Shown: positions 6,491 to 32,004 of the stretch, one piece after another | Layout of the letters: every line of letters begins with the position of its first letter | How positions within the stretch are numbered: the stretch's first letter is position 1 | Assembly (NCBI RefSeq): GCF_900128945.1 | Contig: NZ_FQUD01000005.1 | Coordinates: 124,001 to 188,000, forward strand | DNA from: Chryseobacterium sp. OV279 | GTDB taxonomy: Bacteria; Bacteroidota; Bacteroidia; Flavobacteriales; Weeksellaceae | Length of the DNA stretch: 64,000 nucleotides | Reading direction: 5' to 3' | Notes under the pieces: model-generated | Databases searched by the model: none | What the model saw: only the letters and a program-made list of their open reading frames with translations | What the model was told of the DNA's origin: nothing | Position numbers and translations under genes: made by a program

Positions 6491-6494
6491 AAAC

Positions 6495-7052: not shown

Positions 7053-7061
7053 CAAAAAACT

Positions 7062-7132
7062 ACTCTGATAGTGTAATGGCAGCATCTCAGTCTCCAAAAC
7101 TGATGGTATTGGTTCGAGTCCGGTTCGGAGTG
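7062..7132 (+). tRNA. tRNA-Trp(CCA)
   Basis: Acceptor ACTCTGA/TCGGAGT, anticodon arm TCAGT-CTCCAAA-ACTGA (CCA), T-arm ATTGG-TTCGAGT-CCGGT, discriminator G as expected for Trp. Last tRNA of the array. Confidence 0.88.
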
Positions 7133-7266
7133 CAAAAAATGAAGGTCAATAGTGAATCGTCAATGGTGAATTTTATAAAATTGACAGTGAAACGAATTGA
7201 CAATTAACAATTGACAATTAACAATTGACAAATTAATATAAAACAGAATTTAAAACATGTAAAACA

Positions 7267-7752: not shown

Positions 7753-7799
7753 TAAATAAAGATTGTATTCAAAGGCTTTCGGGCTTAAAAAATAACAGG

Positions 7800-8171: not shown

Positions 8172-8188
8172 ACAACATTTTTAGATCA

Positions 8189-8225
8189 GCGCAAAAAGAT
8201 TGCGTTCTTACTTTTTTACTTTGCA
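8189..8225 (+). promoter_or_regulatory. Regulon promoter P1 (CGCA-N7-TGCG-N15-TTTGCA)
   Basis: CGCA at 8190-8193, seven bases, TGCG at 8201-8204, fifteen bases, TTTGCA at 8220-8225. The -7-like box reads TACTTTGCA. The same geometry occurs exactly at 13188, 28019 and 30217. The inverted repeat lies where an activator or repressor would contact polymerase. It serves the DinB remnant and the RNA ligase. Confidence 0.8.
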
Positions 8226-8325
8226 CAATCGTAATATCAAAGATTACTGAAAGAAAGAAGATGAAGATGATCGATAGAAAGGCAGGAAAATATTCCAGGC
8301 CTTTTGGAAAACGATAAACATTGTA

Positions 8326-8889
8326 ATGGATATTTTTAGATTAATTCAGAATATAAAAACGCATTTGAAACTCAATTTTGATGAGGTGGACAAGTGGTTT
8401 GAAAAAGATTAAAAAACATTGAATGCTCTACCTGCCAATGGAGGCTGGACGGTTCAACAGATTTTGGAACATATTTATCTTACCAACTTTTATTTACTCA
8501 TTCTCATTGAAAAAGGAACAAAAAAAGCAATGCGGAATTATCTTGAGCTTGATCTGAATTCCGAAATAAAAAACTACAGTTTCGATAATGAAAAATTTGA
8601 GAAAGTAGGGGAGTACGGTGCTTTTGAATGGATAAGACCAGAACATATGGAGCCGAAAGGAGAATTAAGTCTTAGTGAAATCAGGAATTTAATGAGTCAG
8701 CAGTATGATCAGTGTTTAAATTATTTAGACCTGATGAAAAATGGTGAAGGTCTCCTCTGTAAAACGACAATGACAGTGAATGGACTGGGAAAAATCAATG
8801 TATATGAATACATTTATTTCCTTTCACTTCACGCTCAGCGACACCTTACTCAAATGAAAAATAATGAATCAGAAACTATTAAAAACTAA
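8326..8889 (+). pseudogene. DinB-superfamily protein broken by an in-frame stop
   Basis: An ATG at 8326 opens a frame (MDIFRLIQNIKTHL...) that reaches TAA at 8410-8412 and continues in the same frame without another stop to 8889. The downstream part has the DinB/YfiT pattern: NGGWTVQQILEHIYL near the N-terminal half and LHAQRHLTQM near the C-terminus, giving His residues at the usual metal-binding sites. So one nonsense codon at codon 29 separates the first helix from the rest. It may be a pseudogene, a sequencing error, or restart at the TTG at 8419. DinB-like proteins are often thiol-dependent or stress hydrolases/transferases. Confidence 0.7.
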
Positions 8890-8896
8890 AAAAAAA

Positions 8897-9913
8897 ATGA
8901 TTTTCAAAACATATAACTCTATAGAAAACGCTTACCAAACCCGCGTGATCGATCAGATCAGGTTGCAGGGTTTTGGGGATGAGGTTTTCATTGTGCAGGA
9001 AAAGGTTCACGGTGCTAATTTCTCTTTCTTTACCGATGGAAAGGATATTAAAATCGCGAAGAGAACTGCCTTTATTGAAAAGGATGAAAAATTCTACAAC
9101 GCACACCTTATTTTAGAACGTTACAGAAAAAATGTAATTGATTTGTTCCAAAAAGTGAAAACCATTCACCCAGAATTGGAAACAGTAGTGATCTACGGTG
9201 AACTGTTCGGAGGTGGCTACAAACATAGAGAAGTAGAACCTGTAAAAGAGGCTATCAAAGTACAAAAAGGTATTGAATACGCACCTCATAACGAATTCTA
9301 TGGATTCGATATTAAATTGAACGGTACTACTTATTTGGATACCGATGTGGTGAATCAGATTTTTGAGGAAACCGGATTTTTCTACGCTAAAATTGTGTTT
9401 CAGGGTAGTTTGGAAGACGCTTTGAGGTTCCCGAATGTATTTGACTCTAAAATTCCGGGCTGGCTTGGCTTACCCGAAATGGAGAACAATATGTGCGAAG
9501 GAACGATTGTCAAAACTTTAAAAACCAGATATTTTGGAAACGGTGCCAGAGTTATTCTTAAAAACAAGAATGATAAGTGGGTCGAAAGATCTAAAATGGT
9601 GAAAAAAGACCGTAAAGACGTCCAAAAACCGGCAGATTTTTCAGAAAATGCTCAGAATATCTGGGAAGAAATTCAGAGGTACGCTACAGTCAACAGATTG
9701 CATAATGTGGTGAGCAAAGTGGGAGAATTTGAACCCAAAATGATAGGCAAGATCATAGGTCTTTTTGCTCAGGATATTTTGGAAGACTTTGGAAAAGATT
9801 TTCCGGATGCTTTCACTTCAGTGGAAAAAGACGAACAGAAAAGAATCAACAAAAAGTTGAATACTTTAGTGATTGATTTTATAAAAGAAGAGTTTATGAC
9901 TCTTAAAGTTTAG
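8897..9913 (+). CDS. Rnl2-family RNA ligase
   Basis: About 338 residues from the ATG at 8897 (MIFKTYNSIE). Nucleotidyltransferase motifs are clear: motif I EKVHGANF (adenylated lysine), motif III VIYGELFGG, motif IIIa EFYGFDI, motif IV EGTIVKT, motif V VILKNKN. The C-terminal third is a helical domain as in T4 Rnl2-type ligases. Such enzymes seal 3'-OH/5'-PO4 nicks in duplex RNA, including cleaved tRNAs or edited RNAs. It is driven by promoter P1 together with the DinB remnant and ends at a strong terminator. With the tRNA array, the cREC protein and Ro60 nearby, tRNA or Y-RNA repair is the likely role, by inference. Confidence 0.92.
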   Translation: MIFKTYNSIENAYQTRVIDQIRLQGFGDEVFIVQEKVHGANFSFFTDGKDIKIAKRTAFIEKDEKFYNAHLILERYRKNVIDLFQKVKTIHPELETVVIYGELFGGGYKHREVEPVKEAIKVQKGIEYAPHNEFYGFDIKLNGTTYLDTDVVNQIFEETGFFYAKIVFQGSLEDALRFPNVFDSKIPGWLGLPEMENNMCEGTIVKTLKTRYFGNGARVILKNKNDKWVERSKMVKKDRKDVQKPADFSENAQNIWEEIQRYATVNRLHNVVSKVGEFEPKMIGKIIGLFAQDILEDFGKDFPDAFTSVEKDEQKRINKKLNTLVIDFIKEEFMTLKV

Positions 9914-9943
9914 TTTCGGTATATTTTTACCGGAACTTTTTTA
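9906..9943 (+). terminator. Terminator after the RNA ligase
   Basis: 10-bp stem AGTTTCGGTA/TACCGGAACT with a TATTTT loop followed by TTTTT. The stem overlaps the stop codon region and separates the ligase transcript from the MBL gene. Confidence 0.85.
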
Positions 9944-9961
9944 TGTTTAAAAACTAATACA

Positions 9962-10906
9962 ATGATACAGGCAGAGATAAAAAGTCTTTTGAGAGAAGAC
10001 ATCAGCATATTAATAAAAATAGCAAATACAGCAAAACATTATTTGTGTGACTGCGGTGAAGCCAGCCAGCTGACGGTAAAAGAAATACAGTCGGTTTCAG
10101 CGGTGTTCATCAGCCATACACACATTGATCATTTTTCGAATTTTGACGGAATTTTCAGACATCAGATAGGTAGCGGAGAAAGAGTTGTGATCTGCGGACC
10201 GAAAAATATCCATCACCAGATTGAAGCACGGTTAAAATCTTACACATGGAATCTGATTGATGAAAAGGCCATTGAATATGAAATCCGTGAGATCATTTCC
10301 CCTGACGAAATTAATGTGTATATCCTTCGTCCACCGCACTGGAACCTGGAACTGATAAAGACGCAGAATTTTCTTTTTGAAGATGATCAGGTAAAAGTAG
10401 AGTTTGCCATTCTTGACCATAAAACAGATTCCATTGCATATCTGTTCAAAGAAAAGGATTCAGTGACCTTTCATGAAGAGGCTTCCGGCTTCAGAAAAGG
10501 AAAATGGATCAGTGAACTGAAAACGGCTTTTGAAAATAATGATGAAGATAAGGAAATTGAGATTGATGGAACCGTTTACAAAGCATCTGATCTGTTTTAT
10601 TTACTGACCAGAAATCAAGGTTACAGGCTTGGGGTAATCATGGATCATGCGGCAGATCAGGAAAATTATGAAAAGATAAAAGCGGTGTTCAGTGAGGCAG
10701 ACCTCGTGTATATCGAGAGTTTTTATAAAGATTCTGATCAGGAATTTGCAAAGCTGAATTACCACAGTTTTGCTTCTGCATCAGGAAAGATCATGAAAGA
10801 CTGTCAGGTGAAAAAAGCTATTCCCATTCACTTTTCAAGACGATATACGGAAACTGATGTTATTGAAATTGAAACTGCTTTTTATAAAGCATTTCACGAA
10901 AATTAA
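9962..10906 (+). CDS. Metallo-beta-lactamase-fold hydrolase, tRNase Z-like
   Basis: 314 residues. FISHTHIDHFSNFDG at about residues 50-64 is the HxHxDH zinc motif with the residues that follow it in RNase Z-type enzymes. Further metal ligands are probably GVIMDHAAD near residue 224, NYHSFASASG near residue 266 and IPIHFSRRY near residue 285 (HF-SRY is typical of tRNase Z). It is longer than a minimal MBL domain because of an acidic insertion around residues 185-205. tRNase Z matures tRNA 3' ends lacking an encoded CCA, which is the state of the tRNAs in the adjacent array. Function is inferred from motifs and context. Confidence 0.8.
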   Translation: MIQAEIKSLLREDISILIKIANTAKHYLCDCGEASQLTVKEIQSVSAVFISHTHIDHFSNFDGIFRHQIGSGERVVICGPKNIHHQIEARLKSYTWNLIDEKAIEYEIREIISPDEINVYILRPPHWNLELIKTQNFLFEDDQVKVEFAILDHKTDSIAYLFKEKDSVTFHEEASGFRKGKWISELKTAFENNDEDKEIEIDGTVYKASDLFYLLTRNQGYRLGVIMDHAADQENYEKIKAVFSEADLVYIESFYKDSDQEFAKLNYHSFASASGKIMKDCQVKKAIPIHFSRRYTETDVIEIETAFYKAFHEN

Positions 10907-10929
10907 TTAAAAATATGAACTACAAAAGA

Positions 10930-11200
10930 ATTGATTTTCTTAAACACAAAGACCACTACTAATCTTCACAAATAAGCACAATCATCTGTGTAGATCTGTG
11001 TAATCCATGGTTAAGAAAACGGTCTTTTTTAAACACAAATACCACAAATGAAACCACAAATATCCACAATCATCTGTGTAAATCTGTGAAATCCGTGGTT
11101 AAGAAAACGGTCTTTTTTTTAAAACAAATACCACCGAGTATTTACACAAACCAACAGAACATCTGTGTATTCTGTGTAATCCGTGGTTAAAAAAGATGTA
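10930..11200 (+). repeat. Three tandem-like copies of a CACAAAT...ATCTGTG...CCGTGGTTAA repeat
   Basis: Units of about 80-90 nt begin AAACACAAA and run through CACAATCATCTGTGTA and GTAATCC(A/G)TGGTTAAGAAAACGG to a T-run. Copies start near 10950, 11033 and 11123. Related copies occur at 27690-27770 and 27845-27925 beside Ro60. It is an intergenic repeat family with no coding potential; the T-runs may terminate transcription. The gap contains no other gene. Confidence 0.75.
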
Positions 11201-11231
11201 GTAAAAATTAAACAAACAAATTATTAAAAAA

Positions 11232-11807
11232 ATGAAACCAAATATATTTTTTACAGCGGACCATCATTTCGGTCACGCCAATATTATAAAATTTTCAGAG
11301 AGACCATTCGAGTCCTTAGACCATATGAATGAAGAACTGATCAAAAGATGGAATGAAAGAATCGGTACCAATGATACCGTCTACCACCTTGGTGATATCA
11401 GTTTAGGAAAACCGGATTTCACGAAAGAAATCCTCGACAGATTAAACGGTAATATTCATTTGATCAGAGGAAACCACGAAGGTGCTGCGCTCACATACCC
11501 CAAACGATTTGAATCCGTGAGAGATTATCATGAATTGAAAATTGATGAACCGGAAAACAGCAATGGCAAGCAGAAAATTATCCTCCTGCATTACGCCATG
11601 CGTACCTGGAACGGTTCACACCGCGGAGTTTGGCAGCTCTACGGCCATTCACACGGAACTTTACCCGATGACGAGATGGCCCTTAGCTTCGATGTGGGAG
11701 TAGACTGTCACGATTTCTACCCGATTTCTTACGAAGAAGTCAAAGAAATCATGAAGCGAAAAAAATGGACGCCCCCGTTTAGAGCAAGAGACAGTAGAGA
11801 TTTATAA
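11232..11807 (+). CDS. Calcineurin-like metallophosphoesterase
   Basis: 191 residues. Metal motifs in order: FFTADHHFGHANI (DxH), YHLGDIS (GDxx), LIRGNHE (GNHE), ILLHYA (H) and LYGHSHG (GHxH). This is a complete binuclear phosphoesterase site of the small YfcE-like group. Members act on phosphodiesters, sometimes 2',3'-cyclic phosphates. It lies between the tRNase Z-like enzyme and the two DEDDh exonucleases, which suggests removal of terminal phosphates from broken RNA before ligation. That substrate is inference. Confidence 0.85.
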   Translation: MKPNIFFTADHHFGHANIIKFSERPFESLDHMNEELIKRWNERIGTNDTVYHLGDISLGKPDFTKEILDRLNGNIHLIRGNHEGAALTYPKRFESVRDYHELKIDEPENSNGKQKIILLHYAMRTWNGSHRGVWQLYGHSHGTLPDDEMALSFDVGVDCHDFYPISYEEVKEIMKRKKWTPPFRARDSRDL

Positions 11808-11810
11808 GCT

Positions 11811-11850
11811 ATGAGTAATGAGTAATGAGTAATGAGTAATGAGTAATGAG
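11811..11850 (+). repeat. Tandem 7-mer repeat GAGTAAT
   Basis: About six tandem copies of TGAGTAA directly after the phosphoesterase stop. Such heptamer tracts recur in this genome (compare 27554-27600) and can change length by slippage. Confidence 0.8.
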
Positions 11851-11933
11851 TGGCGGCCATTGTAATGCCATTAGACTTCATACTTTATACATTTTACATT
11901 GTACTTCAATACTTTATACATTTTACAAAAGAA

Positions 11934-12479
11934 ATGAACACAACAAACGAAATATTAATCATCGATCTGGAAGCTACCTGCTGGGAAAATGACAGAATTC
12001 CCATTGGAGAGAAAGTCGATATTATAGAAATAGGGATTTGCAAACTGGATTTAAAATCAAAGGCCATTTCCCAAAAACAGAGCATTTATGTTATTCCTGA
12101 AAGATCAGAAATCAATGAATTCTGTACAAAACTGACCGGAATTACTCCGCAACTTATTGACGAAAAAGGAATCTATTTTGAAGAAGCCTGCGAAAAGATT
12201 CTGGATGAATATCATTCTTCAGACCTTACCTGGGCGGGCTTCGGAAACTTCGACAAGGAACAGATTTTCGAACAGTGCGACTGGCTTGGAATAGAGATTC
12301 CTTTTGGCGGACAATATCTGAATGTGATGGAAGAATTCAGAGAACATTTCAGACTCCATAAAATGATAGGCCTGAAAAGAGCTCTGGACTACCTGAAAAT
12401 GGATTTCGAAGGAAACCACCACAGCGGAGCAGACGATGCTTACAATGCTGCCAAAATTTTACGGAAGATTTTGGAGTAA
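11934..12479 (+). CDS. DEDDh 3'-5' exonuclease 1 (KapD/ERI1-like)
   Basis: 181 residues from the ATG at 11934; upstream in-frame sequence is AT-rich repeat and is excluded. Exo motifs: I at IIDLEATCW (D and E), II at WAGFGNFDKEQ (D), III at HHSGADDA (H and D). This gives a complete DEDDh site. The LEATCW form is typical of ERI1/KapD exonucleases, which trim RNA 3' ends. A second paralogue follows 75 nt downstream, so the pair arose by tandem duplication. A role in trimming damaged tRNA or Y-RNA ends is inferred from the location. Confidence 0.85.
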   Translation: MNTTNEILIIDLEATCWENDRIPIGEKVDIIEIGICKLDLKSKAISQKQSIYVIPERSEINEFCTKLTGITPQLIDEKGIYFEEACEKILDEYHSSDLTWAGFGNFDKEQIFEQCDWLGIEIPFGGQYLNVMEEFREHFRLHKMIGLKRALDYLKMDFEGNHHSGADDAYNAAKILRKILE

Positions 12480-12553
12480 ATATTAAAGACGGAAGCTATA
12501 GGCCAAAAGCCAAAAGCCATCTTCCCTCTTTTACAACATTAAATTTTAAACAA

Positions 12554-13105
12554 ATGAAAACAACAGAAAATATATTAATTATAGACCTGGAAGCCACCTG
12601 CTGGGACGACAGACCGCCCAGAGGCCAGGAAAGTGAGATCATCGAGATCGGCGTGTGCATTATGAATGCTGCCACCGGGAAGGTCTCAAAAAATGAAGGC
12701 ATTTTAGTGAAACCACAGTACTCAAAGGTGAGTACATTCTGTACAGAACTGACTTCCATTACACAAAATATGCTGGATGATGAAGGCATCATGCTGGAAG
12801 ACGCTCTGGATATACTTAGGGCGGAATACGATTCTGAGGACCTGACATGGGCGAGCTATGGCAACTATGACCTGAATATGCTGCAAAACCAGGCCAGAAG
12901 ATTCAATGTAGATTATCCGTTGAGCGATGACCATATCAATGTAAAAACATTGTTCGGGCAGCTGCATCCTACGGTAAGAAAAAGTGTAGGAATGAGCAGG
13001 GCCTTAGGTGAACTGAATCTCAAGCTGGAAGGTACGCACCACAGAGGTGTAGATGACGCGAAGAATATTGCGAAGATCTTGCATTGGTGCTTAAACCAGG
13101 CTTAA
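12554..13105 (+). CDS. DEDDh 3'-5' exonuclease 2 (KapD/ERI1-like)
   Basis: 183 residues, paralogous to the preceding gene. Motif I IIDLEATCWDD, motif II WASYGNYDLNM and motif III HHRGVDDA are intact, so both copies should be active. Differences are concentrated between motifs I and II, which may give separate substrates. A terminator follows the stop. Confidence 0.85.
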   Translation: MKTTENILIIDLEATCWDDRPPRGQESEIIEIGVCIMNAATGKVSKNEGILVKPQYSKVSTFCTELTSITQNMLDDEGIMLEDALDILRAEYDSEDLTWASYGNYDLNMLQNQARRFNVDYPLSDDHINVKTLFGQLHPTVRKSVGMSRALGELNLKLEGTHHRGVDDAKNIAKILHWCLNQA

Positions 13106-18031: not shown

Positions 18032-20578
18032 ATGCTTATTGAAGATGAATTGAAGACGATTTATTTAAATTATAGAATCAAGGATATTGTTCCTTTTCTC
18101 ATAAAGCTGACCCCAAAAGAAAAGAAGGAAACTGCAGTTATTTTAAAGAAATTTTTAAATAAAGACTGGGGCCATAATCACGTTTCTATGCTGGCCGCTC
18201 TGGCCTGCAGCACCCACCGGGACGAATATGCAAAACTGTCGCCCGGTTATTACGCCGTCCCAATACATCTCGTTGACGAATTATTCGAATCTTACACGCC
18301 GGAATGGCTCGGAAACAGCTATCCGTTTCTCAGGAATATTGACTACCTGAAAGTCCTGGAATGGCAACAGAAAGGTTATCTTATCCTCGATGATGAAATT
18401 GCTGCCCATCTTCTTTCGGAATCATTGGTTTCAGACCATACCGCAGAAGAAATTCTTTTCACCTATCCTGAAACACTGGATGCTCATATCTGGCTCCTTT
18501 TTCAGTATATTTCCAATATCACGTATCATTATAAAAACGATAAAAACTGGAAGGTCTTCTTTAAAGATCTTGTCCAAAAAAATAAAATTGACCGTTTAAA
18601 AGTTTTACAATCCTGCCTGAATGCAGTGAGTCTCAATTTTTCCAAAGACCATAATATGTGGTTTCTGGAACTTTTTTCATATTTGGAACCTTATTCACAG
18701 GAGATTTTAGCACTTCAGGAGAACCTATTCTCAGTTTTCCATGCTTCACAACAGGCACTTTTTGTTCCGGTACTGAAAATTATTAGCCCGGTTATCACGG
18801 AACCAGATTTTAAAACACTCGATTTTCTTAATGCTACAGCAACTTTACCCAGTCTTCAGGTTAAAAATATTCTGAATACATGGCTTCAGACGGTTGAGAA
18901 AATAGCGAAGAACGATAAAAAAATCAGGGAAGAGATCTGTCTTTTCGTGCTACCTGTTTTTATGAGCAAAGACGCTTCTATACAGACCAAAGTAGCCAAA
19001 ATCATTACAAAATATGGTGATCCCGGTTCTGAAAAGTATAAGAATGAATTACAGGCTTACACAGAATCTCTACTGTCAGATCCTAAAAAAGAGCTTGAAA
19101 AATTCCTTATCAACCATAATAATGAAGCTCTGGAATCTGTAGAGGCTGAAGAACCAACTTCCTGGCATATATCTCAACCGATTTCTCCTATTGAAAGCAT
19201 CAGTGATCTGATATTCTTTGCGCCACAGGTTTTCAGCAAAAACAAGCCCAATGATCTTGATCTTTTTATAGATGCTTTGCTGAGGTTCAATACAGAGATC
19301 AGTGAAGAGCACCTTACACAGCTGGAACCGGCTTTCAAAGCAGCCCTTAAAGTAAAAGAAAGTGTAGGGATGCACCATTTGTATGCTACATTTTTTATGG
19401 CATACGCACTTTTAAAACTGAAAAAAGGATCTCCGCTACTCAATAAAGCAAAGAAAGAATTTCCGGCTCTTGAAAACTGGATTGGAAAGCGTACACCTTT
19501 GATCTTTAAAGCCTATCATCAAATTCTTTTGGGAGTATTTGATCTTTTAAAACAAGGAAAAAACCTTCCGTTACTTTCAGTCGCGGATCATACACCTTGC
19601 TGGATTGATATTCGAATACTTATAGATCAATTAAAAATATACCAGGATCAGAAAGAACTTCCCGTTCCTTTCGATCTGCAGAGAGCAGTGCTTCGGGTAC
19701 GAAAAGAGAATTTCGAAGAAGCACAAAAGTATGCTCACAAGCAGCTTAGTGAAGAATATGTACAACTGTTGGAACCCATTTTTGATCCGGAATATTATAG
19801 AAATATTTACGACAAGTCTTATCTGGAAGGCAATTTCGACAGAAAGTTAGGCATCAGAAAAATATACAAAGGCTACATAGCAGAAGAAATTCCAGAGCTT
19901 ACAATAACGATTGAAAATAAAGAAATTCCCGGAGATGCACCGCTGCTGGATCATTTATTTAACTCCTATCACGGCATCTATGATCAGGATCTGATCCGGA
20001 TTTTATACACTGCTCCGTACTTTTCGGGGGCTGTTTTTGCTAAAAAATGTAACGAAACCCTGTCCAATGCTGTTTATCAATATGACAGCAGAACCAATAC
20101 CGAATTTTTAGATGCCTGGATGAAGTTGAATCTTCCATGTCAGAAGATGCATTATTTATTCCTGTCCGCGGCTATGTTCAGCAAGGATAAAACCTTCTCT
20201 GGTACGGCTTTTGAAGCGATTGTTCATAAGATAGTTTCAGAGGATTTTGACCCCGGAATATTAGGAATAATGATCGGTGAAAAGATCAGTCACGGACTGG
20301 TTACGGTGAAAAGACTTACGGATGGACTTTCCGGCTTTATCGGATTGAATGCCAGTCACAACCATGCTTTTGAAAAACTATTAATACCCATTCTTACAGC
20401 GATAGATCGTCCCGTTTTTAATCTCAAAAAGATTTTAGAGATGTACTATGAGCTGCTGCACCTTAATCAGTCCGAAGTTGATGGTGCGGTGGCTGCCAGG
20501 CTGGAAGAATGGAAAAACGAAAATAACCTGAAAAAAATTATCATCAAATTAAAAACAAATGAAAGAAAGACTTTATGA
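18032..20578 (+). CDS. DUF6493-type HEAT-like repeat protein 1
   Basis: 848 residues, alpha-helical throughout with HEAT-like units (for example LPVFMSKDASIQTKVAKIITKYG and the C-terminal TAIDRPVFNLKKILEMYYELL). It is paralogous along its whole length with the next gene, sharing SKDESIQTKAAKII and NLKKILDIYHEVLALNQSE. Such proteins occur with SWIM zinc-finger proteins and MolR-type regulators in Bacteroidota. No catalytic residues are visible. Its 3' end overlaps the next start by 20 nt, so the genes are coupled. Function unknown. Confidence 0.75.
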   Translation: MLIEDELKTIYLNYRIKDIVPFLIKLTPKEKKETAVILKKFLNKDWGHNHVSMLAALACSTHRDEYAKLSPGYYAVPIHLVDELFESYTPEWLGNSYPFLRNIDYLKVLEWQQKGYLILDDEIAAHLLSESLVSDHTAEEILFTYPETLDAHIWLLFQYISNITYHYKNDKNWKVFFKDLVQKNKIDRLKVLQSCLNAVSLNFSKDHNMWFLELFSYLEPYSQEILALQENLFSVFHASQQALFVPVLKIISPVITEPDFKTLDFLNATATLPSLQVKNILNTWLQTVEKIAKNDKKIREEICLFVLPVFMSKDASIQTKVAKIITKYGDPGSEKYKNELQAYTESLLSDPKKELEKFLINHNNEALESVEAEEPTSWHISQPISPIESISDLIFFAPQVFSKNKPNDLDLFIDALLRFNTEISEEHLTQLEPAFKAALKVKESVGMHHLYATFFMAYALLKLKKGSPLLNKAKKEFPALENWIGKRTPLIFKAYHQILLGVFDLLKQGKNLPLLSVADHTPCWIDIRILIDQLKIYQDQKELPVPFDLQRAVLRVRKENFEEAQKYAHKQLSEEYVQLLEPIFDPEYYRNIYDKSYLEGNFDRKLGIRKIYKGYIAEEIPELTITIENKEIPGDAPLLDHLFNSYHGIYDQDLIRILYTAPYFSGAVFAKKCNETLSNAVYQYDSRTNTEFLDAWMKLNLPCQKMHYLFLSAAMFSKDKTFSGTAFEAIVHKIVSEDFDPGILGIMIGEKISHGLVTVKRLTDGLSGFIGLNASHNHAFEKLLIPILTAIDRPVFNLKKILEMYYELLHLNQSEVDGAVAARLEEWKNENNLKKIIIKLKTNERKTL

Positions 20579-23255
20579 GATCCTTAATGAGGAAAAAGCA
20601 CATGAGATTATTCCGTTTCTGAAGCAGCTAAGCACAGAAGAAAGAAAAACCCTGGTACCCACAATAAAAAAGCTGGACCGGGAGATCAGTAAGATTGTAA
20701 TGACGAAAAACTCCTACCATACTGCCGGTTCTGCAGATCAGCACTCTATCATTGATATTGCATCATTTGTCTGCATGGATCAGAAGCATTACGGGAAAAA
20801 CTACTGGAGCCTTTTCAGAGACAAAGAACAGACCCGTAAGATACTGGAATGGGGATGCCCGCCGTGGTTTTCAGAATTTATCAATGATTCTATAGAAGCT
20901 GAATTTACAGCTTTTAATTATCAGGATATTCTTGAGTGGGCAGAAAAAGGCTATGTAAAACCCAGACCTGAACTGCTGGGATACCATTTAAGTCTTCAGC
21001 CCTATGACCTGGATAAATCTCCGGAGACTCTGAATACCCACTTTTGGTATCTGTGCGAATTTCCATCGAAATCACTCCCTTTTACAAGAGAATGGCTTCC
21101 TTTGGTTCAAAAGCTGATTGCCGAAAACAAAATTGAAAGAAAAAGATTTCTTAAGGAATGCCTTCTGGCAGCCAACAGAAATTTTAATAAAAACGTGACC
21201 GGATGGTTCATGGATGCATTCAATATCCTGAAACCTTCAAACGAAGAACTGATCATGCTTCAGGACGAACTGATGGCAGGATTGGCTTCCGTACAGTCGA
21301 AGGCGGTGAATACCATGCTGGCTCATTTGAAAAAAATAGTTCCGGAATCAGAATTCAAAACCAGTGAGTTTTCCCATTTCCTTCCGAACCTGTTAAGTTC
21401 AGAGGTCAAAACGGTGGTGGCAGCCAGTCTTGCTGTGACAGAAAATATCTTTCAGAAAAAGAAAACCGATACTGAAAACCTGGGAATGGCTTTGAGCGCA
21501 GCGTTTGTAAGCAAAGATGAAAGCATACAGACTAAAGCGGCAAAGATCATCCAGAAATACATTCCTGTTTCCGAAGATATCCAGGAAGCCTTATCACATT
21601 ATGCAGATAATGTTTTGGCTAATGTAAGACCGGGACTCGCTGAATACATTGAAGATAAACAATTGGAACTGGATGCCGTAGAGCAGGAAAAGCTGGAACT
21701 GATCAGCGAAGAAAGCCGGGCTAAAGAGCCTGCCAGCTTTGAAGATTTGATGTTTTTCCTTCCGCAGGCGATAGAAAAGCCGGGGACGTATTATTATGAT
21801 CTGGCACTTGGTGGACTTGTCAAGTTTGCTGCTGATGCAGATGACGCATCCGTAAAACTTTTTGAACCCGTATTTCAGAAAGCCTGTAAAACTATTGCGA
21901 AATGGGAAGTACATCATTTTAATGTGCTGCTGTGCAATCTGATCATCAATTATGGACTGTCTTTAATGGAAAAATTCCCGGTTCAGCTTAAGAATCTGGA
22001 AAAAATATATAAAAGAACACAGGAAGACGAAGCGACAAGAGAAGTGTATTCAACCTACCATAAAAAGTTGGGTCCTATCCGGGATATCTATGCCGGAGGG
22101 GTGGCTATGAAGCCCTTCAAGCATATTGCAGTACAGGTTTTCAATAAAATAAAATCAGGAGATAAAACTCCGTTATTGTCTACAGTAACCCATGAACCAT
22201 GTTGGGTAAGTCCGGATGCATTGGTAGAAAGATTTGAAATTTATCAAAACGAAAATATAAAGCCTGATGATCTGGATGTACAGCTGGCACTGCAGCGTTG
22301 TTCACTTGAAAGAACATCAGACAGATTAAAGCTGGTGGAAGAAAAGCTGAAAGGTGAATACAAAGACCTGCTTCTTTTCTTTTTTAGTCCAAATGCAGCT
22401 CCGAAAGGAAAATTTGAACATCCATCATGGTGGATGACTGCCGGAATTACCCGTTCTCCGGGAACTGTTTTTAAAGAATTCAAAGACTTCGGATATGACG
22501 ATATTCCTAATGAATTCCTTACCGGCTCATATGAATGGAAAACAATTGACAGTAAAAAGAACTCCTATTATCCGGTTGAACTGAACATCAATGTTCCGAA
22601 ATATCATCTGAAAAAAAGAGAACATCCGCTTTTCCTGGAATTCTTTATTGCGGAGCAGAAACATTTCTCTGAAACCCCTTCATTCATGTGGAGTTTCCCG
22701 AATACCCTTGGAAATGTTTTTGCTAAGATCATTAAGGACTGTCTGTTTTATTCCGGAATCGCAGAAGTGTATGAAAGAACTCTGGTTCTGAATACGGCCC
22801 AGGCGCTTCATCAGATGAAAAAACCTCTGGATGCAATGGGATACCTGTTTCTGGGAACTATTTTCCTGGATGGCGATAAAGTCATTCGTGGAACCGCTGC
22901 TGAGATCTGGCTGGAACATGTTTCGCATAAAGTAATGGATAATGTACAGCTGGGCCGTGTGACCGGTTTGCATGAGAAACTCGAATGGGCGCCTGTGAAG
23001 AGATTTACGGATCTGGTACAGCATCAGATGCTCAATGTCAGCAAAGACCACAATCTGGCACTGGAACAGCTTCTTACCCATATTTTGCTGCAGATGGAAA
23101 CCCCTGTTACCAATCTGAAAAAAATATTGGATATTTACCACGAGGTTCTGGCTTTAAACCAATCTGAAGCTGATAAAAACTTAAAAGAAAAACTGAATAG
23201 CTGGAAAGAGAATTCCAGTCTGAAAAAAATCTGCAATCTTCTTCTAAAAAAATAG
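20559..23255 (+). CDS. DUF6493-type HEAT-like repeat protein 2
   Basis: 898 residues, paralogue of the preceding gene by tandem duplication. Helical HEAT-like repeats with the conserved C-terminal block NLKKILDIYHEVLALNQSEADKN (the matching block of copy 1 is NLKKILEMYYELLHLNQSEV). It carries an insertion around residues 630-680 not present in copy 1. It is followed after 2 nt by the SWIM protein gene, which supports a three-protein complex. Molecular role unknown. Confidence 0.75.
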   Translation: MKERLYEILNEEKAHEIIPFLKQLSTEERKTLVPTIKKLDREISKIVMTKNSYHTAGSADQHSIIDIASFVCMDQKHYGKNYWSLFRDKEQTRKILEWGCPPWFSEFINDSIEAEFTAFNYQDILEWAEKGYVKPRPELLGYHLSLQPYDLDKSPETLNTHFWYLCEFPSKSLPFTREWLPLVQKLIAENKIERKRFLKECLLAANRNFNKNVTGWFMDAFNILKPSNEELIMLQDELMAGLASVQSKAVNTMLAHLKKIVPESEFKTSEFSHFLPNLLSSEVKTVVAASLAVTENIFQKKKTDTENLGMALSAAFVSKDESIQTKAAKIIQKYIPVSEDIQEALSHYADNVLANVRPGLAEYIEDKQLELDAVEQEKLELISEESRAKEPASFEDLMFFLPQAIEKPGTYYYDLALGGLVKFAADADDASVKLFEPVFQKACKTIAKWEVHHFNVLLCNLIINYGLSLMEKFPVQLKNLEKIYKRTQEDEATREVYSTYHKKLGPIRDIYAGGVAMKPFKHIAVQVFNKIKSGDKTPLLSTVTHEPCWVSPDALVERFEIYQNENIKPDDLDVQLALQRCSLERTSDRLKLVEEKLKGEYKDLLLFFFSPNAAPKGKFEHPSWWMTAGITRSPGTVFKEFKDFGYDDIPNEFLTGSYEWKTIDSKKNSYYPVELNINVPKYHLKKREHPLFLEFFIAEQKHFSETPSFMWSFPNTLGNVFAKIIKDCLFYSGIAEVYERTLVLNTAQALHQMKKPLDAMGYLFLGTIFLDGDKVIRGTAAEIWLEHVSHKVMDNVQLGRVTGLHEKLEWAPVKRFTDLVQHQMLNVSKDHNLALEQLLTHILLQMETPVTNLKKILDIYHEVLALNQSEADKNLKEKLNSWKENSSLKKICNLLLKK

Positions 23256-23257
23256 AT

Positions 23258-24607
23258 ATGGAAGATACGCTTGTTTACAATTATCAGAGACCATCGTCTT
23301 TGATAAAAAAAGATGCATCTGAAGAATTATTTCTGTCCAAGTACAGCGAAATTCAGAAGACTACGGATGCTCCCTGCTTTTTCTGGGGAGATGTCAGTCA
23401 GCCGTTTATACTGGCGAGATGCCTTATTACCCTTTCCAATATTGTGAAATCCAGCTTTAATCTGTCGCCGTTTCAGATGGCTTTGCTTAAAGACCCTATC
23501 GTTACGGCCGGAAATGAGCGGTTGCGGTTTGAAGGATTTTCGCACTGTGCCGGAGTGTACGCTAGGGTAGATGTTCTGCCTGACGGACTGCACGGTGAGT
23601 TTCTGGAAAACGGAACCACCAATGTGGATTTTAACCAACCGATGATTACTGCGTTGGGAAGCATTCGGCCGAATGAAAAAATAATGCTTTCTGTTGGGGA
23701 AAAAGAAGTTGGACTGTACAAAGAAGAAGAAAAAGTAGTGGAAAGAAAAGTTCCGCTGCCTGTAAAATGGATCAAAGGACTCAGTACCGTTCAGATCTAT
23801 CTTTCCGAGTCGGAAAAGCTTCATACTTTTAATAAAATCCAGACTCAGCAGTTATTCAGAGGAATACCGAAAGGTCCGGTAAAATCAGACTATTATCTGA
23901 TCATCAGAGGAAATAAACCTATGTTTTCTCCTGTGAAATCGGCGGATGCAGTCTGTATTGGCGGGCTTAACAGATTACGCTTGCTGGAACCGCTTCTTCC
24001 TTATATCGACCAGATGCAGGTATTTCCGCATGCAGATATGCAGTCTACCACATGGCAGCTGTATATGGGAAATATAAGGTTTAGTTTTTCTTTATCAAGG
24101 GAGAGCTGGAGAGGATTTTCAGGAGAAGGAGCCGTTTTGGACAGCCTGATTGACGATATTTCCGATGAATGGATTGATGCACTGGATAAATACGCTTATG
24201 CGAATCAGTCTTTTAATCCTTCAGCTTTTGCTGTGGAGGAAAATATGAGTCTTAAAACAACGGATAACCTGACAGGAAGATTGGCTGCCATGGGACTTTT
24301 AGGCTACGATCTTGATGATAACGGATTTTTCTACCGTAGATTACCATTTAAACTCAACCGGATTATCGGTTTAAATCCAAGGATGAAAAATGCAGAAAAA
24401 CTCATTGCAGAAGGAAAGGTGGAAATTTTAAATAAAAATTTAGCCAGAACCGAAGCCAGAGTAGAAGGGACCGGTGTACATCATACGGTTATTATCGATA
24501 ATGGGAAAGAACGCTGTACCTGCGAATGGTTCAGTAAATACCAGGGCGAGAGAGGACCATGCAAACATGTTTTGGCAGTTAAAAAAGTGGTATGCCTTAA
24601 AGCCTGA
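23258..24607 (+). CDS. SWIM zinc-finger protein
   Basis: 449 residues. The C-terminal CTCEWFSKYQGERGPCKHVL matches CxC...CxH of the SWIM zinc finger at about residues 418-437, a fold that binds nucleic acid or protein. The remainder is a mixed alpha/beta region of unknown type seen in SWIM proteins linked to DUF6493/MolR genes. It is the last gene of the three-gene operon and ends at a bidirectional terminator. Confidence 0.82.
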   Translation: MEDTLVYNYQRPSSLIKKDASEELFLSKYSEIQKTTDAPCFFWGDVSQPFILARCLITLSNIVKSSFNLSPFQMALLKDPIVTAGNERLRFEGFSHCAGVYARVDVLPDGLHGEFLENGTTNVDFNQPMITALGSIRPNEKIMLSVGEKEVGLYKEEEKVVERKVPLPVKWIKGLSTVQIYLSESEKLHTFNKIQTQQLFRGIPKGPVKSDYYLIIRGNKPMFSPVKSADAVCIGGLNRLRLLEPLLPYIDQMQVFPHADMQSTTWQLYMGNIRFSFSLSRESWRGFSGEGAVLDSLIDDISDEWIDALDKYAYANQSFNPSAFAVEENMSLKTTDNLTGRLAAMGLLGYDLDDNGFFYRRLPFKLNRIIGLNPRMKNAEKLIAEGKVEILNKNLARTEARVEGTGVHHTVIIDNGKERCTCEWFSKYQGERGPCKHVLAVKKVVCLKA

Positions 24608-28114: not shown

Positions 28115-29632
28115 ATGAAATTCAATTTTTTAAACAAAGAGAAAAATACCGTAATGAACTACGAAGGTGCAAAGGCATTTACCATGACACCTGCTGAAGA
28201 ATTATACAGTGCTGTTGTTACAACAGGATTATCCAAAACCTCTTATGAAAAAGGGAGCGACAGATTGGTAAGAATTCAGTCTCTGATCAAAAAAAACGAT
28301 CCGGAATTCGTAGCAAAGCTGGCGGTGTATGCAAGGAAAGATATGTACTTGCGTTCTATTCCATTGGTATTGGCTGCCGAACTCGCTAAGCAAACCTCCG
28401 GTACTGACTTAATCAGCAGAACGGTTGATGGGGTGGTGCAGAGAGCGGATGAAATCACTGAACTTTTGGCGTACTACCAAACGACGAACGAAAGAACAGA
28501 AATGAAAAAACTGAACAGGCTTTCAAAGCAGATCCAGAAAGGTCTTGCGAAGTCTTTCAATAAATTTGATGAATATCAGTTTGCAAAATACAACAGAAAG
28601 GCAGAAGTAACGCTTAGAGATGCGTTGTTCCTGGTTCATCCGAAAGCAAAAGATGAAAATCAGCAGGCAGTTTTTAACAAGATTGTGGGTGATACGTTGG
28701 AAACTCCTTTCACGTGGGAAGTTGAGCTTTCCGTATTAGGTCAGACGAAATTTGCAGATGAAACGGAAAAAAAGCTTGCTTTTAAAAATAAGTGGGAAGA
28801 ATTGATCCTGAGCAATAAGCTGGGGTATATGGCGACACTGAGAAACCTTAGAAATATTTTGGAATCGGAAGTTTCTTCTAATGCGATGGCTAAAGTTTGC
28901 AGCTATCTATCCAATGAAAAAGCTGTCCTTAATTCAAAACAGCTTCCGTTCAGATTTTTGGCGGCTTACAGAGAATTGAAAGCTAAGAAATCACCTTATT
29001 TGTCATCTGTTTTAGAAGCATTGGAAGATGCGGTGATGGTGAGTGCAAAAAATATCAAAGGTTTTGGTTTTGATACTTCGGTGGTGATCGCGGCGGATGT
29101 TTCAGGTTCTATGCAGAAGCCGGTTTCTCCTAAAAGTAAAGTATTGCTTTACGATATCGGATTATTGATGTCTATGATTTTGCAGTCACAATGTAAAAAT
29201 GTGATCACGGGTATATTCGGTGACAGCTGGATGAGAGTTCCTATGCCTAAAAGCGGTATTTTGAGAAACGTGAATGCGTTTTACAAGCGTGAAGGTGAAG
29301 TAGGGTATTCTACCAACGGTTATCTGGTGATTGAAGACTTGATTAGAAAGAAAGAACAAATAGATAAAGTAATGTTGTTTACCGATACGCAGTTGTGGAA
29401 CAGTAAAAACACCAAGCATTCTTTTGAAGATTCCTGGAATAAGTATAAAAAGATAGCTCCGGATGCAAAATTATATATATTTGATTTAGCGGGTTACGGA
29501 AACCAGCCGTTAGATGTCAGAAAAAATGACGTATATCTTATTGCAGGTTGGTCGGATAAGATTTTCGATGTATTGAATGCTGTGGAAGACAGAAAGTCTG
29601 CGGTGCAATTAATTAAAAAAGTGGTGCTGTAA
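28115..29632 (+). CDS. rsr: Ro60/TROVE-domain ring protein (Rsr-like)
   Basis: 505 residues. The N-terminal TROVE helical-repeat ring (from MNYEGAKAFTMTPAEELY to about residue 310) includes LAVYARKDMYLRSIPLVLAA, the typical conserved block. The C-terminal vWA domain has the MIDAS-like AADVSGSMQ motif near residue 330 and LMSMILQSQCKNV. Ro60 binds Y RNAs on its outer surface and misfolded RNA in its central cavity, and in Deinococcus and Salmonella it acts with PNPase and RNA-repair genes. Here it lies upstream of seven Y-RNA-like genes and is controlled by promoter P3. Strong family call; function in this organism is by homology. Confidence 0.95.
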   Translation: MKFNFLNKEKNTVMNYEGAKAFTMTPAEELYSAVVTTGLSKTSYEKGSDRLVRIQSLIKKNDPEFVAKLAVYARKDMYLRSIPLVLAAELAKQTSGTDLISRTVDGVVQRADEITELLAYYQTTNERTEMKKLNRLSKQIQKGLAKSFNKFDEYQFAKYNRKAEVTLRDALFLVHPKAKDENQQAVFNKIVGDTLETPFTWEVELSVLGQTKFADETEKKLAFKNKWEELILSNKLGYMATLRNLRNILESEVSSNAMAKVCSYLSNEKAVLNSKQLPFRFLAAYRELKAKKSPYLSSVLEALEDAVMVSAKNIKGFGFDTSVVIAADVSGSMQKPVSPKSKVLLYDIGLLMSMILQSQCKNVITGIFGDSWMRVPMPKSGILRNVNAFYKREGEVGYSTNGYLVIEDLIRKKEQIDKVMLFTDTQLWNSKNTKHSFEDSWNKYKKIAPDAKLYIFDLAGYGNQPLDVRKNDVYLIAGWSDKIFDVLNAVEDRKSAVQLIKKVVL

Positions 29633-30216: not shown

Positions 30217-30253
30217 GCGTAAAAAGAATGCGCACTTCAGAAATAACTTTGCA
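30217..30253 (+). promoter_or_regulatory. Regulon promoter P4 before the Y RNAs
   Basis: CGTA 30218-30221 (one base from CGCA), seven bases, TGCG 30229-30232, fifteen bases, TTTGCA 30248-30253. Same geometry as P1-P3. The predicted start, about 8 nt after TTTGCA, coincides with the 5' end of Y1. Confidence 0.8.
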
Positions 30254-30261
30254 ATTGTTAT

Positions 30262-30335
30262 TGACCCGGTGCCGTAAGGAAAGAACTTCTTCGACTTTTC
30301 ATTGAACAGAGTCTTTTCGCCAGATGCCCGGTACA
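30262..30335 (+). ncRNA. Y-RNA-like gene Y1
   Basis: Follows P4. Lower stem CCGG, bulged T, GC pairs with GC-CCGG. The conserved GTGCCGTA...CTTCG block on the 5' side matches the other six copies. No tRNA-like module; the interior is a short hairpin loop. Confidence 0.7.
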
Positions 30336-30341
30336 GACAGA

Positions 30342-30427
30342 CCAATGCCGTACACTAAGCGTTTCATCGTCAAACTTCCAATTTGAATACATTCAAAAAA
30401 CGCTTATGACTTATTGCTTGGTTTTTT
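30342..30427 (+). ncRNA. Y-RNA-like gene Y2
   Basis: Lower stem CCAA-(T)-GC with GC-TTGG, upper stem AAGCGTTT/AAACGCTT, 5' block ATGCCGTA...TTCATCG. It ends in GGTTTTTT, a terminator-like tail, 10 nt before the next ORF start. No tRNA-like module. Confidence 0.7.
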
Positions 30428-30437
30428 AAATATTAGT

Positions 30438-30962
30438 ATGGAAAATATCTTTTACAAAATTGGGAAGGATCTTGAGGAAGGCAGAAAGAAAAAAGCATGT
30501 GACAGACTTAGAAATGCTGTAAATCAATATCCTGATGATCTTTCTTTAAGAGAAAAGCTGGGACGGATTTATTATGAAGCAGGATTTTTAGATGAAGCGG
30601 GAAAGTTTTGGATTTTATCTGAACCGAAAGATATGGAAATGGAAAATGCTGTGGAGATTTATAAAAGTTCTTTAAGCTATTCTGGAAATGCTATTTTAAA
30701 AGATATTGTTTTCAGAGGTGATAAAAAGATGCTCAGTGATTATGCACGGAATGTTTTAAAAGATCTCGAAAGGGACAGTTTAAAAAAGACCAATTATATT
30801 CCTGAGTATAAACAAAAATATAAAAAGGGATTGATAGATTCAAAAAGTAACCCAAGCTTCCTAAGTAAAGTGGCAATCTTTTTACTGATAGGAACAGTAA
30901 TTTTACTGCCGGTTTTGGGACTTGTTAAGCTGCGTGAACTTATCATTTCATTATTTAGGTAG
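30438..30962 (+). CDS. DUF6584-like TPR-type membrane-anchored protein
   Basis: 174 residues from the ATG at 30438. N-terminal helical repeats (KACDRLRNAVNQYPDDLSLREKLGRIYYEAGFLDEAGKFW) resemble the DUF6584/TPR-like family. A C-terminal segment (VAIFLLIGTVILLPVLGL, about residues 145-162) is a likely membrane anchor. It sits between Y RNAs Y2 and Y3 inside the P4 unit, so it may tether or regulate the Ro60/Y complex. That role is inference. Confidence 0.7.
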   Translation: MENIFYKIGKDLEEGRKKKACDRLRNAVNQYPDDLSLREKLGRIYYEAGFLDEAGKFWILSEPKDMEMENAVEIYKSSLSYSGNAILKDIVFRGDKKMLSDYARNVLKDLERDSLKKTNYIPEYKQKYKKGLIDSKSNPSFLSKVAIFLLIGTVILLPVLGLVKLRELIISLFR

Positions 30963-31050
30963 ATTTTACAGTATAAAAAAATAAGTAACCATGAAAATGT
31001 ATAAACTTTGTCTTAAAGGAACTGTGTATTGAGGTTAATTCTCAATAGAC

Positions 31051-31287
31051 ATGAAAAAATTCAAAACATTCAAAGAATCTTTTGGGATCAATGAATACGG
31101 ACTCATTGATTTTCCAAAGAAAATTTCCGGAATACAGATCTCAAGATTAAAGTATGGAAATAAAATGGGCTGTTCGTATTGCTTTCCGCACGGTTTTGAT
31201 ACGGTGAATTCCCATCAGGAAAATTACCAGAGAAACTGGAAAAAATACAGAAAAACCCGTTGGAAAAATACAAAGCAGGTGCCGTAA
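31051..31287 (+). CDS. Small CxxC protein overlapping the 5' strand of Y3
   Basis: 78 residues, basic, with CSYCFPHG at about residues 41-48. A hairpin ATTGAG/CTCAAT precedes it (31028-31046). Its last codons overlap the Y3 lower stem (GTGCCGTAA supplies the stop). Could be a real small protein or a spurious frame; the Cys/His cluster and clean length favour the former. Confidence 0.45.
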   Translation: MKKFKTFKESFGINEYGLIDFPKKISGIQISRLKYGNKMGCSYCFPHGFDTVNSHQENYQRNWKKYRKTRWKNTKQVP

Positions 31288-31400
31288 AACAGAATTGCTT
31301 CGTTGGGTGACAGCAATACAGGTTCGAATCCTGTTCTGGAAACAGATGGCGTAAGGGTATCGCTCTGTCGTAAGTTTCTGTTTGGCCAAATGCCCTGCTT
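31273..31400 (+). ncRNA. Y-RNA-like gene Y3 with permuted tRNA-like module
   Basis: Lower stem AAGCAGG-(T)-GC with GC-CCTGCTT. 5' block GTGCCGTAAAACAGAATTGCTTCG. The tRNA-like module runs GACAG (anticodon-type stem), T-arm ACAGG-TTCGAAT-CCTGT, closed acceptor TCTG-GAAA-CAGA, D-arm GCG/CGC, CTGTC. The acceptor is only 4 bp with a GAAA tetraloop. Confidence 0.8.
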
Positions 31401-31406
31401 ACAAAT

Positions 31407-31549
31407 AATCAAGTGTCGTTTTAGGATCATACTTCGGGATTTAGAAACATTGGGACGCAGGTTCGATTCCTGCCTTTTCCCTCGAAAAGGAGAGGTAGCT
31501 CAGCTGGTAGAGCAAATGCACGGAAGATCCTTTCAGTATTACCTTGATT
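31407..31549 (+). ncRNA. Y-RNA-like gene Y4 with permuted tRNA-like module
   Basis: Lower stem AATCAAG-(T)-GT with AC-CTTGATT, second stem AGGATC/GATCCT. Module: CATT, T-arm GCAGG-TTCGATT-CCTGC, acceptor CTTTTCC-CTCGAAAA-GGAGAGG (7 bp), TA, D-arm GCTC/GAGC, AATG. Variable loop 5 nt as in class I tRNA. Confidence 0.85.
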
Positions 31550-31559
31550 TAAAAATAAA

Positions 31560-31706
31560 AAGTTGAGTGTCGTCTCAGAATCATACTTCGATTACGGTTC
31601 ACCAGGTTGCAGGTTCGAATCCTGCCGTCTCTTTTTGTAAAGAGATTGTAGTTCAATTGGGCAGAGCAGGTGAAAAAGAAAGATTCTAACATGATAACCT
31701 TGACTT
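31560..31706 (+). ncRNA. Y-RNA-like gene Y5 with permuted tRNA-like module
   Basis: Lower stem AAGTTGAG-(T)-GT with AC-CTTGACTT (two wobbles), second stem AGAATC/GATTCT. Module: TTCACC, variable AGGTT, T-arm GCAGG-TTCGAAT-CCTGC, acceptor CGTCTCT/AGAGATT, D-arm GTTC/GAGC, GGTGAA. A full tRNA fold in permuted order. Confidence 0.85.
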
Positions 31707-31711
31707 CAATA

Positions 31712-31843
31712 AAAGAGTGCCGTAGAAAAGGCTTACTTCGAGTAGGAAATTAGACCTCAAAAATCTAAGAAAAGTGCAATATGCCTGAATAACAGTAAGG
31801 AGAAAGGTGCACGTCTGTCTTTTCGCCTTTTGCCTCTTTTTAA
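31712..31843 (+). ncRNA. Y-RNA-like gene Y6 without tRNA-like module
   Basis: Lower stem AAAGAG-(T)-GC with GC-CTCTTT, upper stem AAAAGGC/GCCTTTT, 5' block GTGCCGTAGAAAAGGCTTACTTCG. The interior has two plain hairpins (TTAGA/TCTAA and GTGCA/TGCAC) and no T-arm. T-run follows the 3' strand. Confidence 0.75.
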
Positions 31844-31853
31844 TAAAAAAAAT

Positions 31854-32004
31854 AAACAAGTGCCGTAGAACAGTGTTACTTCGCTCATCACGACGGGGTC
31901 ACGGGTTCGAGTCCCGTCTCTTCCACCAAAAAAACACAGTCTGTCATAGGAAGAGTAGCTCAGTTGGTTAGAGCACGACTACACGCTCAGCTGTTGCCTT
32001 GTTT
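31854..32004 (+). ncRNA. Y-RNA-like gene Y7 with permuted tRNA-like module and encoded ACCA
   Basis: Lower stem AAACAAG-(T)-GC with GC-CTTGTTT, second stem AACAG/CTGTT. T-arm ACGGG-TTCGAGT-CCCGT, acceptor 3' strand CTCTTCC followed by ACCA (31925-31928), 20-nt linker, acceptor 5' strand GGAAGAG (7 bp), TA, D-arm GCTC/GAGC. The discriminator-CCA in the linker looks like a relic of, or mimic of, a tRNA 3' end. The anticodon-type stem is not clear. Confidence 0.8.

Follow-up and report, generated by a model that had tools for sequence, protein, structure and literature searches.

Seven candidate Y RNAs with a shared handle and differing modules downstream of Ro60 in Chryseobacterium

Downstream of the gene for Ro60/Rsr in Chryseobacterium sp. 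OV279, we identified seven units, y1–y7, which are probably (at about 0.78) bacterial Y RNAs of this adjacent Ro60, forming a scaffold set in which one handle is joined to differing modules that would recruit a partner or a substrate. The units lie in a 64,000-nt stretch of contig NZ_FQUD01000005.1 (hereafter the window, to which all coordinates refer unless another locus is named). Sequence comparison supplied the elements on which this assignment is built: the handle with its covariation, the tRNA-like topology of some of the modules, the largely conserved order of the units and their linkage to Ro60. On the same strand and 3′ of Ro60, the locus reads y1, y2, a DUF6584 gene, a 78-aa open reading frame (ORF), and then y3–y7 in tight tandem.

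28115–29632 (+), Ro60/Rsr gene (TROVE and vWA), 505 aa, assigned by Pfam, structure search and fold
30244–30251 (+), TAnnTTTG promoter-like element, 14 nt before y1, by sequence
30266–30331 (+), y1, short Y unit of family C1 without a tRNA-like module; family in 51 of 81 loci
30339–30424 (+), y2, short Y unit of family C3 without a tRNA-like module; family in 59 of 81 loci
31273–31400 (+), y3, Y unit of family C5 with a putative permuted tRNA-like module: T-arm 31318–31334, acceptor hairpin with GAAA cap 31335–31346, Gln-like D-arm 31347–31364
31407–31549 (+), y4, Y unit of family C0 with a putative permuted tRNA-like module (RF02553, 33.3 bits, E 6.1e-5): T-arm 31457–31473, 7-bp acceptor hairpin 31474–31495, D-arm 31496–31513
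31560–31706 (+), y5, Y unit of family C0 with a putative permuted tRNA-like module (RF02553, 30.1 bits, E 5e-4): T-arm 31609–31625, acceptor hairpin 31626–31647, D-arm 31648–31667
31711–31840 (+), y6, Y unit of family C7 with a conserved module resembling nothing recognised; family in 16 of 81 loci
31854–32004 (+), y7, Y unit of family C2 with a putative permuted tRNA-like module (RF02553, 37 bits, E 5.3e-6): T-arm 31901–31917, acceptor 31918–31924 / 31949–31955, cap loop 31925–31948 starting with ACCA, D-arm 31956–31974

Results

The protein encoded upstream of the units is Ro60

Pfam assigned TROVE (1.1e-29) and vWA_Ro60 (7.5e-7) to the 505-aa protein, and a sequence search against solved structures likewise identified it as Ro60. 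Its AlphaFold2 model, which was built from 26 sequences (predicted local distance difference test, pLDDT, 81.2) and replaced an earlier model from ten close relatives (pLDDT 52.5), matched the solved TROVE domain 9kop (Z 25.7), Ro60 of the Thermus phage phiLo (9l5y, Z 23.3), Rsr of Deinococcus radiodurans (2nvo, Z 20.7) and vertebrate Ro60 (Z 20–21). The ten best fold matches were all TROVE, Ro60 or Rsr proteins (Z 20.1–25.7 over 409–428 residues, root-mean-square deviation 4.6–7.2), and the next ones were vWA-only structures with Z of at most 10.9. The protein has the TROVE helical repeats, the vWA domain and the Ro60 fold that define the Ro60/Rsr group; PADLOC gave no match for it. This was the one TROVE gene found in the genome of the window. 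The nearest named relatives found were Chryseobacterium sp. JM1, C. oleae and C. herbae, whose Ro60 is 96% identical; the family sample had TROVE in 118 of 296 genomes, the class sample in 18 of 395.

A covarying handle is common to the units and recurs in relatives

In the handle, a variable lower helix with a bulged U is followed by a 2-bp G-Y/R-C step, CGT, an upper helix, and an ACTTCG-like motif about 10–20 nt after CGT. All seven units predicted by an initial annotation of this DNA were located where predicted, from y1, starting at 30266, through y7, ending at 32004. The block GTGYCGT...CTTCG that it ascribed to all of them is absent from y2, which reads ATGCCGT...CATCG. Its claim of perfect lower-stem pairing stood in that all 5′ strands fully pair with their own 3′ strands, with y5 requiring two G-U wobbles; the lower stem of y1 is only 4 bp long. 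The stems had also been described as seven independent compensatory sets, but their independence is incomplete: owing to the likeness of some stems, three of 42 swapped combinations also pair fully (y1 with the y2 3′ strand, 4/4; y3 with that of y7, 7/7; y5 with that of y4, 7/7). The five-unit tandem was confirmed, with spacers that measured 6, 10, 4 and 13 nt by the boundaries used here in place of the 5–14 nt given before. A pairing scan of the whole window on both strands recovered six of the seven units, with two other matches on the plus strand and none on the minus strand, and missed y1 because its 4-bp stem is under the cut-off.

Conservation was assessed in 81 loci, consisting of the window and the best 80 of 432 relatives (the named loci), a choice which leans the sample to Chryseobacterium. 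Circularity in the pairing test was avoided by choosing the sites by motif alone, up to 4.6 kb downstream of TROVE (534 sites in 81 loci). A 3′ partner strand of at least 6 bp together with the 2-bp step was present at 441 of these 534 sites, compared to 975 of 10,680 shuffled stems and 384 of 3,410 stems swapped inside a locus. The pairing scan of the 80 relatives' loci gave 520 matches downstream in sense orientation, 6 upstream in sense orientation and 11 in antisense. The handle recurred downstream of TROVE in 79 of the 81 loci; the two unit-free ones (L156 and L160) lie on contigs that continue for only about 1.7 and 0.2 kb beyond TROVE. The units therefore have the basal helix with a conserved bulge, supported by covariation, and the position beside a Ro60 ortholog that mark bacterial Y RNAs, and the central proposal of the initial annotation, that genes resembling those of Y RNAs adjoin Ro60 and share a conserved helix with a bulged U, was borne out by the Pfam, structure-search and fold results for Ro60 and by the recurrence of the handle.

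Once overlaps were resolved, the 79 loci contained 545 units, 3–14 per locus with a median of 7, so the number of units in the window is not unusual, contrary to what had been supposed. Spacers of at most 20 nt separated 282 of 466 neighbouring pairs. Among the class-level Bacteroidia, 14 of 16 loci had at least two sense units by reading of the matches, with none in L069 and a doubtful case in L075; this count leaves out L067, a 1.3-kb piece.

Similarity clustering yielded 13 families of at least four units, with C11 and C12 confined to Flavobacterium and Pedobacter loci. The window has the sequence C1, C3, C5, C0, C0, C7, C2. The order of families is largely conserved: 1,435 of 1,517 ordered unit pairs in 67 Chryseobacterium-group loci agreed with the consensus C1-C3-C5-C10-C0-C7-C9-C4-C8-C2-C6, as did 19 of 27 pairs in 12 loci outside this group.

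The 78-aa ORF at 31051–31287 ends within y3, its last codons, AAG CAG GTG CCG TAA, being the 5′ stem of y3. An ORF of at least 40 codons from ATG overlapped 9 of 59 C5 units in this way, one of them on a contig that bears the label Limnohabitans. Neither Pfam nor PHROG gave a match for the 78-aa ORF.

Four modules resemble a permuted tRNA

The modules of y3, y4, y5 and y7 run from a T-arm through the acceptor 3′ strand, a closing loop and the acceptor 5′ strand to a D-arm, which reads as a circular permutation of tRNA minus the anticodon arm. A rule for this topology accepted 214 of the 545 units, compared to 3 of 545 shuffled ones. Chen et al. are said to have set, in 2014, a criterion of at least one Y RNA with a tRNA-like domain per species; at least one accepted unit was present in 79 of 79 loci. 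T-arm-like hairpins were detected in 321 of 520 units, and eight of the 13 families had members with one. The Rfam YrlA model RF02553 aligned y7, y4 and y5 over their T-arm, acceptor and D-arm elements, and sub-gathering YrlA matches were obtained in 20 of 20 arrays of relatives (26–45 bits, E ≤ 0.1, top 44.6); y3 gave no row against RF02553, and y6 no match in Rfam, at E ≤ 1. The permuted tRNA-like modules in four units, which the initial annotation had not noted, thus tie the array to the known bacterial YrlA RNAs. In the consensus fold computed for the y7 family from 28 members (27 of 68 distinct ones plus that of the window), 13 of 38 pairs showed compensatory change, distributed over the lower stem, the upper stem, the T-arm and the acceptor.

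By nearest D-arm type, C0 and C2 were Lys-, Arg- or Met-like, C5 Gln-like, C9 Glu/Trp-like (7 units scored) and C10 Ser/Cys-like (6 units scored). Assignment to isoacceptors was tried and given up: the modules of y3, y4, y5 and y7 scored at best 52, 70, 62 and 78 against 54 host tRNAs, and tRNAs for different amino acids scored 36–80 among themselves. The shuffled 95% control was not exceeded by C4 (16 vs 22) or C10 (22 vs 24), slightly exceeded by C9 (24 vs 22), C0 (26 vs 24) and C5 (28 vs 24), and clearly exceeded by C2 (42 vs 22). We rejected the idea that C6 mimics tRNA-Pro, its median score of 20 being below the shuffled 95% level of 22. An encoded CCA was likewise rejected as a conserved feature: of 69 C2 units, only 7 have ACCA after the acceptor, and ACAA is the commonest sequence there (34). 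In C10, three of nine members (in L134, L147 and L161) with a module of Ser/Cys type carry a 22-nt T-loop insertion at the same place.

The Rfam tRNA model calls a tRNA at 31489–31633 (36.2 bits, above the cut-off), which is an artefact consisting of the D-half of y4 fused with the T-half of y5. The tRNA model can therefore call a false tRNA across adjoining Y units, and annotators should be warned of it.

Promoter-like elements head some blocks

The TAnnTTTG element before y1 corresponds to what we take to be the Bacteroidota −7 consensus. Such an element was found at most 60 nt upstream of 27 of 70 C1 units and 22 of 59 C5 units, compared to 724 of 20,000 random places, and it accompanied 43 of 193 units that have over 100 nt of free space ahead of them versus 18 of 352 tandem units. 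This distribution suits promoters heading some of the blocks; y3, the C5 unit at the head of the second block, had no TAnnTTTG element within 60 nt upstream. Both terminator-like sites inside the array proved to be T-arms, and nothing else there was recognised as a terminator. The tight spacing and the promoter-like motif before y1 are only compatible with one precursor for the five tandem units.

A family in relatives carries a 23S rRNA-like stretch

The family C8 (about 225 nt), present in 19 of the 80 named loci and absent from the array of the window, contains a stretch similar to helix 69–70 of 23S rRNA. The stretch was identical to 23S over 33 of 33 nt in L132 and 88–97% identical over 25–33 nt in 18 further loci; a C8 profile matched 23S (nhmmer, E 7.4e-8) over 33 nt, an identity to helix 69–70 beyond chance, and gave no significant match outside them. 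We rejected the idea that C8 copies more of 23S, at greater length or in permuted form, because the rest of the unit (41.6) and its tail (20.7) scored below the shuffled 95% levels (44.2 and 25.8, respectively). The consensus fold of the 19 members had 60 pairs, 16 of them with compensatory changes. A pattern for the 23S-like stretch (at most three mismatches) occurred in 24 of 292 family genomes and in none of 395 class-sample genomes, and all 24 matches lay 1,600–4,164 nt downstream, in sense orientation, of the listed TROVE match in the respective genome. One carrier, L190, is on a contig labelled Limnohabitans with a Ro60 70% identical, indicating that the family extends beyond Chryseobacterium labels. 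Of the 19 C8 members, six have a helix 69 loop shortened by 3 nt and two more have one shortened by 1 nt, and ACGGTCCTAAGGTAGCG was exact in 14 of 19. This combination suggests that whatever reads the module seems to read the helix 69–70 strand, presumably about positions 1919–1936 of E. coli, more than the loop.

The search for rRNA covered the region downstream of TROVE in the named loci, L061–L080 whole and the array of the window. A relative's operon, its tRNAs masked, served for comparison, since no match to the 23S pattern was found in the window's own genome assembly. The only other match to the rRNA operon at E < 1e-5 in these stretches was in an AT-rich flank of L160, and a 22-nt match to 16S in L190, outside its array, was dropped as chance.

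Genes further from Ro60

The region 4789–7133 and 7267–13105 holds a cluster of 14 tRNAs, many of them odd by eye, and after it genes for an RNase H-like protein, a T4 Rnl2-type RNA ligase (8864–9913), a metallophosphoesterase and an RNase_T exonuclease. This tRNA/RNA-ligase region, 15–23 kb upstream of Ro60, looks like a mobile or RNA-repair island. At 1024–2748 and 20559–24607, the window encodes a MoxR-vWA-beta-propeller (bpX3) protein, and a SWIM zinc-finger protein, matched by PADLOC to SWIM_XIII, with a DUF6493 protein beside it. In two class-level genomes, genuine tRNAs (60–68 bits; Lys, Phe and Pro by reading of the anticodon loops) lie inside or beside the Y arrays, at L245 630–862 and L242 164–236.

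Discussion

In a scaffold set, the handle would be the docking site for Ro60, so that every Y RNA would bind Ro60 through one end and offer the module at its other end to a partner. The units would be transcribed and bound by Ro60. By the Deinococcus precedent, the partner of the tRNA-like end could be PNPase, whose tethering would make a decay machine for structured RNA. Several heads recur, including one from 23S, and we infer that different heads select different partners or substrates.

Several observations weigh against this assignment. Every RF02553 match is under the gathering score of 69 bits (y7, y4 and y5 at 37, 33.3 and 30.1), and the units were not filed in that family. Compensatory changes are lacking among the D-arm pairs of the y7 family, which leaves sequence likeness as the basis for the D-arm, and three of the seven units (y1, y2 and y6) are without a tRNA-like module. 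The modules match one host tRNA isoacceptor no better than different tRNAs match each other; this likeness is not above the tRNA-to-tRNA level, so that no unit was assigned a tRNA that it imitates, and only the D-arm type differs. The order of families is free of exceptions in only 34 of 67 loci, with breaks mostly among C1, C3 and C5. Finally, tethering of PNPase is a precedent from another phylum.

The chief rival, which we consider unlikely, is that the modules are baits or decoys that mimic tRNA and 23S sites of modifying enzymes or toxins and either recruit these to Ro60 or soak them up. The T-arm and helix 69–70 of 23S are sites of pseudouridine synthases and methyltransferases, and such a role would agree with the wide distribution of T-arm-like hairpins among the units and with the copying of helix 69–70 by one family. 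It also has precedents in the literature: YrlA is a substrate of DusA and TruB (PMC8394870), and was suggested as a possible competitive inhibitor of anticodon nuclease in a paper on the RNA-repair operon (PMC7790460). However, the modules lack the anticodon arm, which is the target of tRNA-cleaving anticodon nucleases, and the variable length of the helix 69 loop beside a mostly exact ACGGTCCTAAGGTAGCG disfavours a bait for loop-reading enzymes.

Far less probable are permuted tRNA genes, from which RNase P and tRNase Z would remove the acceptor cap to leave a two-piece RNA with a chargeable free CCA end. The y7 unit has the appearance of one, in that its acceptor 3′ strand runs straight into ACCA, its cap is A-rich and 24 nt long, and a leader-like end precedes GGAAGAG, and a weak match to permuted tmRNA (25.6 bits vs a cut-off of 47) points the same way. 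Yet the ACCA is shared by few C2 units, as noted above, the cap is a GAAA tetraloop in y3 and 8 nt in y4, and the folds contain no anticodon arm; the anticodon arm and conserved internal CCA of a permuted tRNA gene are both missing. That the units are degenerate remnants of a tRNA cluster, structured in appearance only, can hardly be right and is already contradicted by the conservation data, since a handle in 79 loci, a mostly conserved order, compensatory changes and a permutation in 214 of 545 units do not look like decay, even though the tRNA model matches across y4/y5, L242 and L245 have true tRNAs within or next to their arrays, and 14 tRNAs lie about 23–25 kb from the array.

Returning to the scaffold set, we tentatively suggest an extension that we regard as possible but short of probable, in which Bacteroidota Ro60 arrays are modular libraries that mimic structured RNAs and steer which RNAs or RNA enzymes meet the Ro60 particle. 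The units would show different tRNA types and a 23S helix 69–70 fragment on a common Ro60 handle, and, if this is true, the arrays would serve surveillance or decay of tRNA and ribosomes. The role of Y RNAs, and why cells keep several, is a long-standing question. With one genus, many species and several Y RNAs that carry recurring, exchangeable modules on one handle, the scaffold idea becomes directly testable. Ro60-linked Y RNAs and permuted tRNA mimicry are already known. In the open-licence literature, a scope that the main survey (Chen et al. 2014) falls outside, we found neither an ordered multi-family array nor a 23S-like head; unit counts per locus, and even an rRNA-like module, could be in that survey, in the YrlA structure paper or in the 2018 review.

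Comparison with known systems

YrlA is circularly permuted relative to tRNA (PMC11472068) and carries D, T and acceptor arms (PMC8394870), and the tRNA-like head of bacterial Y RNA tethers PNPase (PMC8394870, PMC7790460, PMC4726728). Like YrlA of Salmonella, Deinococcus and Mycobacterium (RF02553), the units lie beside Ro60/Rsr and combine a basal stem, which binds Rsr in YrlA, with a permuted tRNA-like domain. Unlike YrlA, the arrays here stay below the gathering score for RF02553, hold 3–14 units per locus in largely conserved order, and consist of families with several D-arm types, some without a tRNA module and one with a 23S stretch. By analogy with RYPER (the Rsr–Y RNA–PNPase complex of Deinococcus radiodurans), a Ro60 combined with Y RNAs whose ends resemble tRNA would suit a scaffold plan of this kind, although many candidate Y RNAs are encoded here versus one or a few there.

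A phage provides the next likeness, as the 'pseudo-tRNAs' of Vibrio phage KVP40 are 82% identical over 64 nt to the permuted T-acceptor-D stretch of y4, a comparison of the module alone, with a host of another phylum. The two annotated 'pseudo-tRNAs' at L267 2417–2663 of KVP40 span the y4-like module and may be phage Y RNAs. Another viral contig (L263) encodes a TROVE protein 56% identical with one handle-bearing Y unit downstream, at 7911–7992; the stretches scanned in the other four viral contigs gave no Y unit.

We know of no vertebrate Y RNA with a tRNA-like domain. Bacterial Y RNAs are stated not to be homologous to those of vertebrates (PMC4726728). The units nevertheless resemble vertebrate Y RNAs in a lower helix that has about seven pairs and one bulged pyrimidine, the Ro60 site in vertebrates (PMC4726728), where the bulge is a C with a 3-nt bulge opposite, whereas the bulged pyrimidine of the units here is a U.

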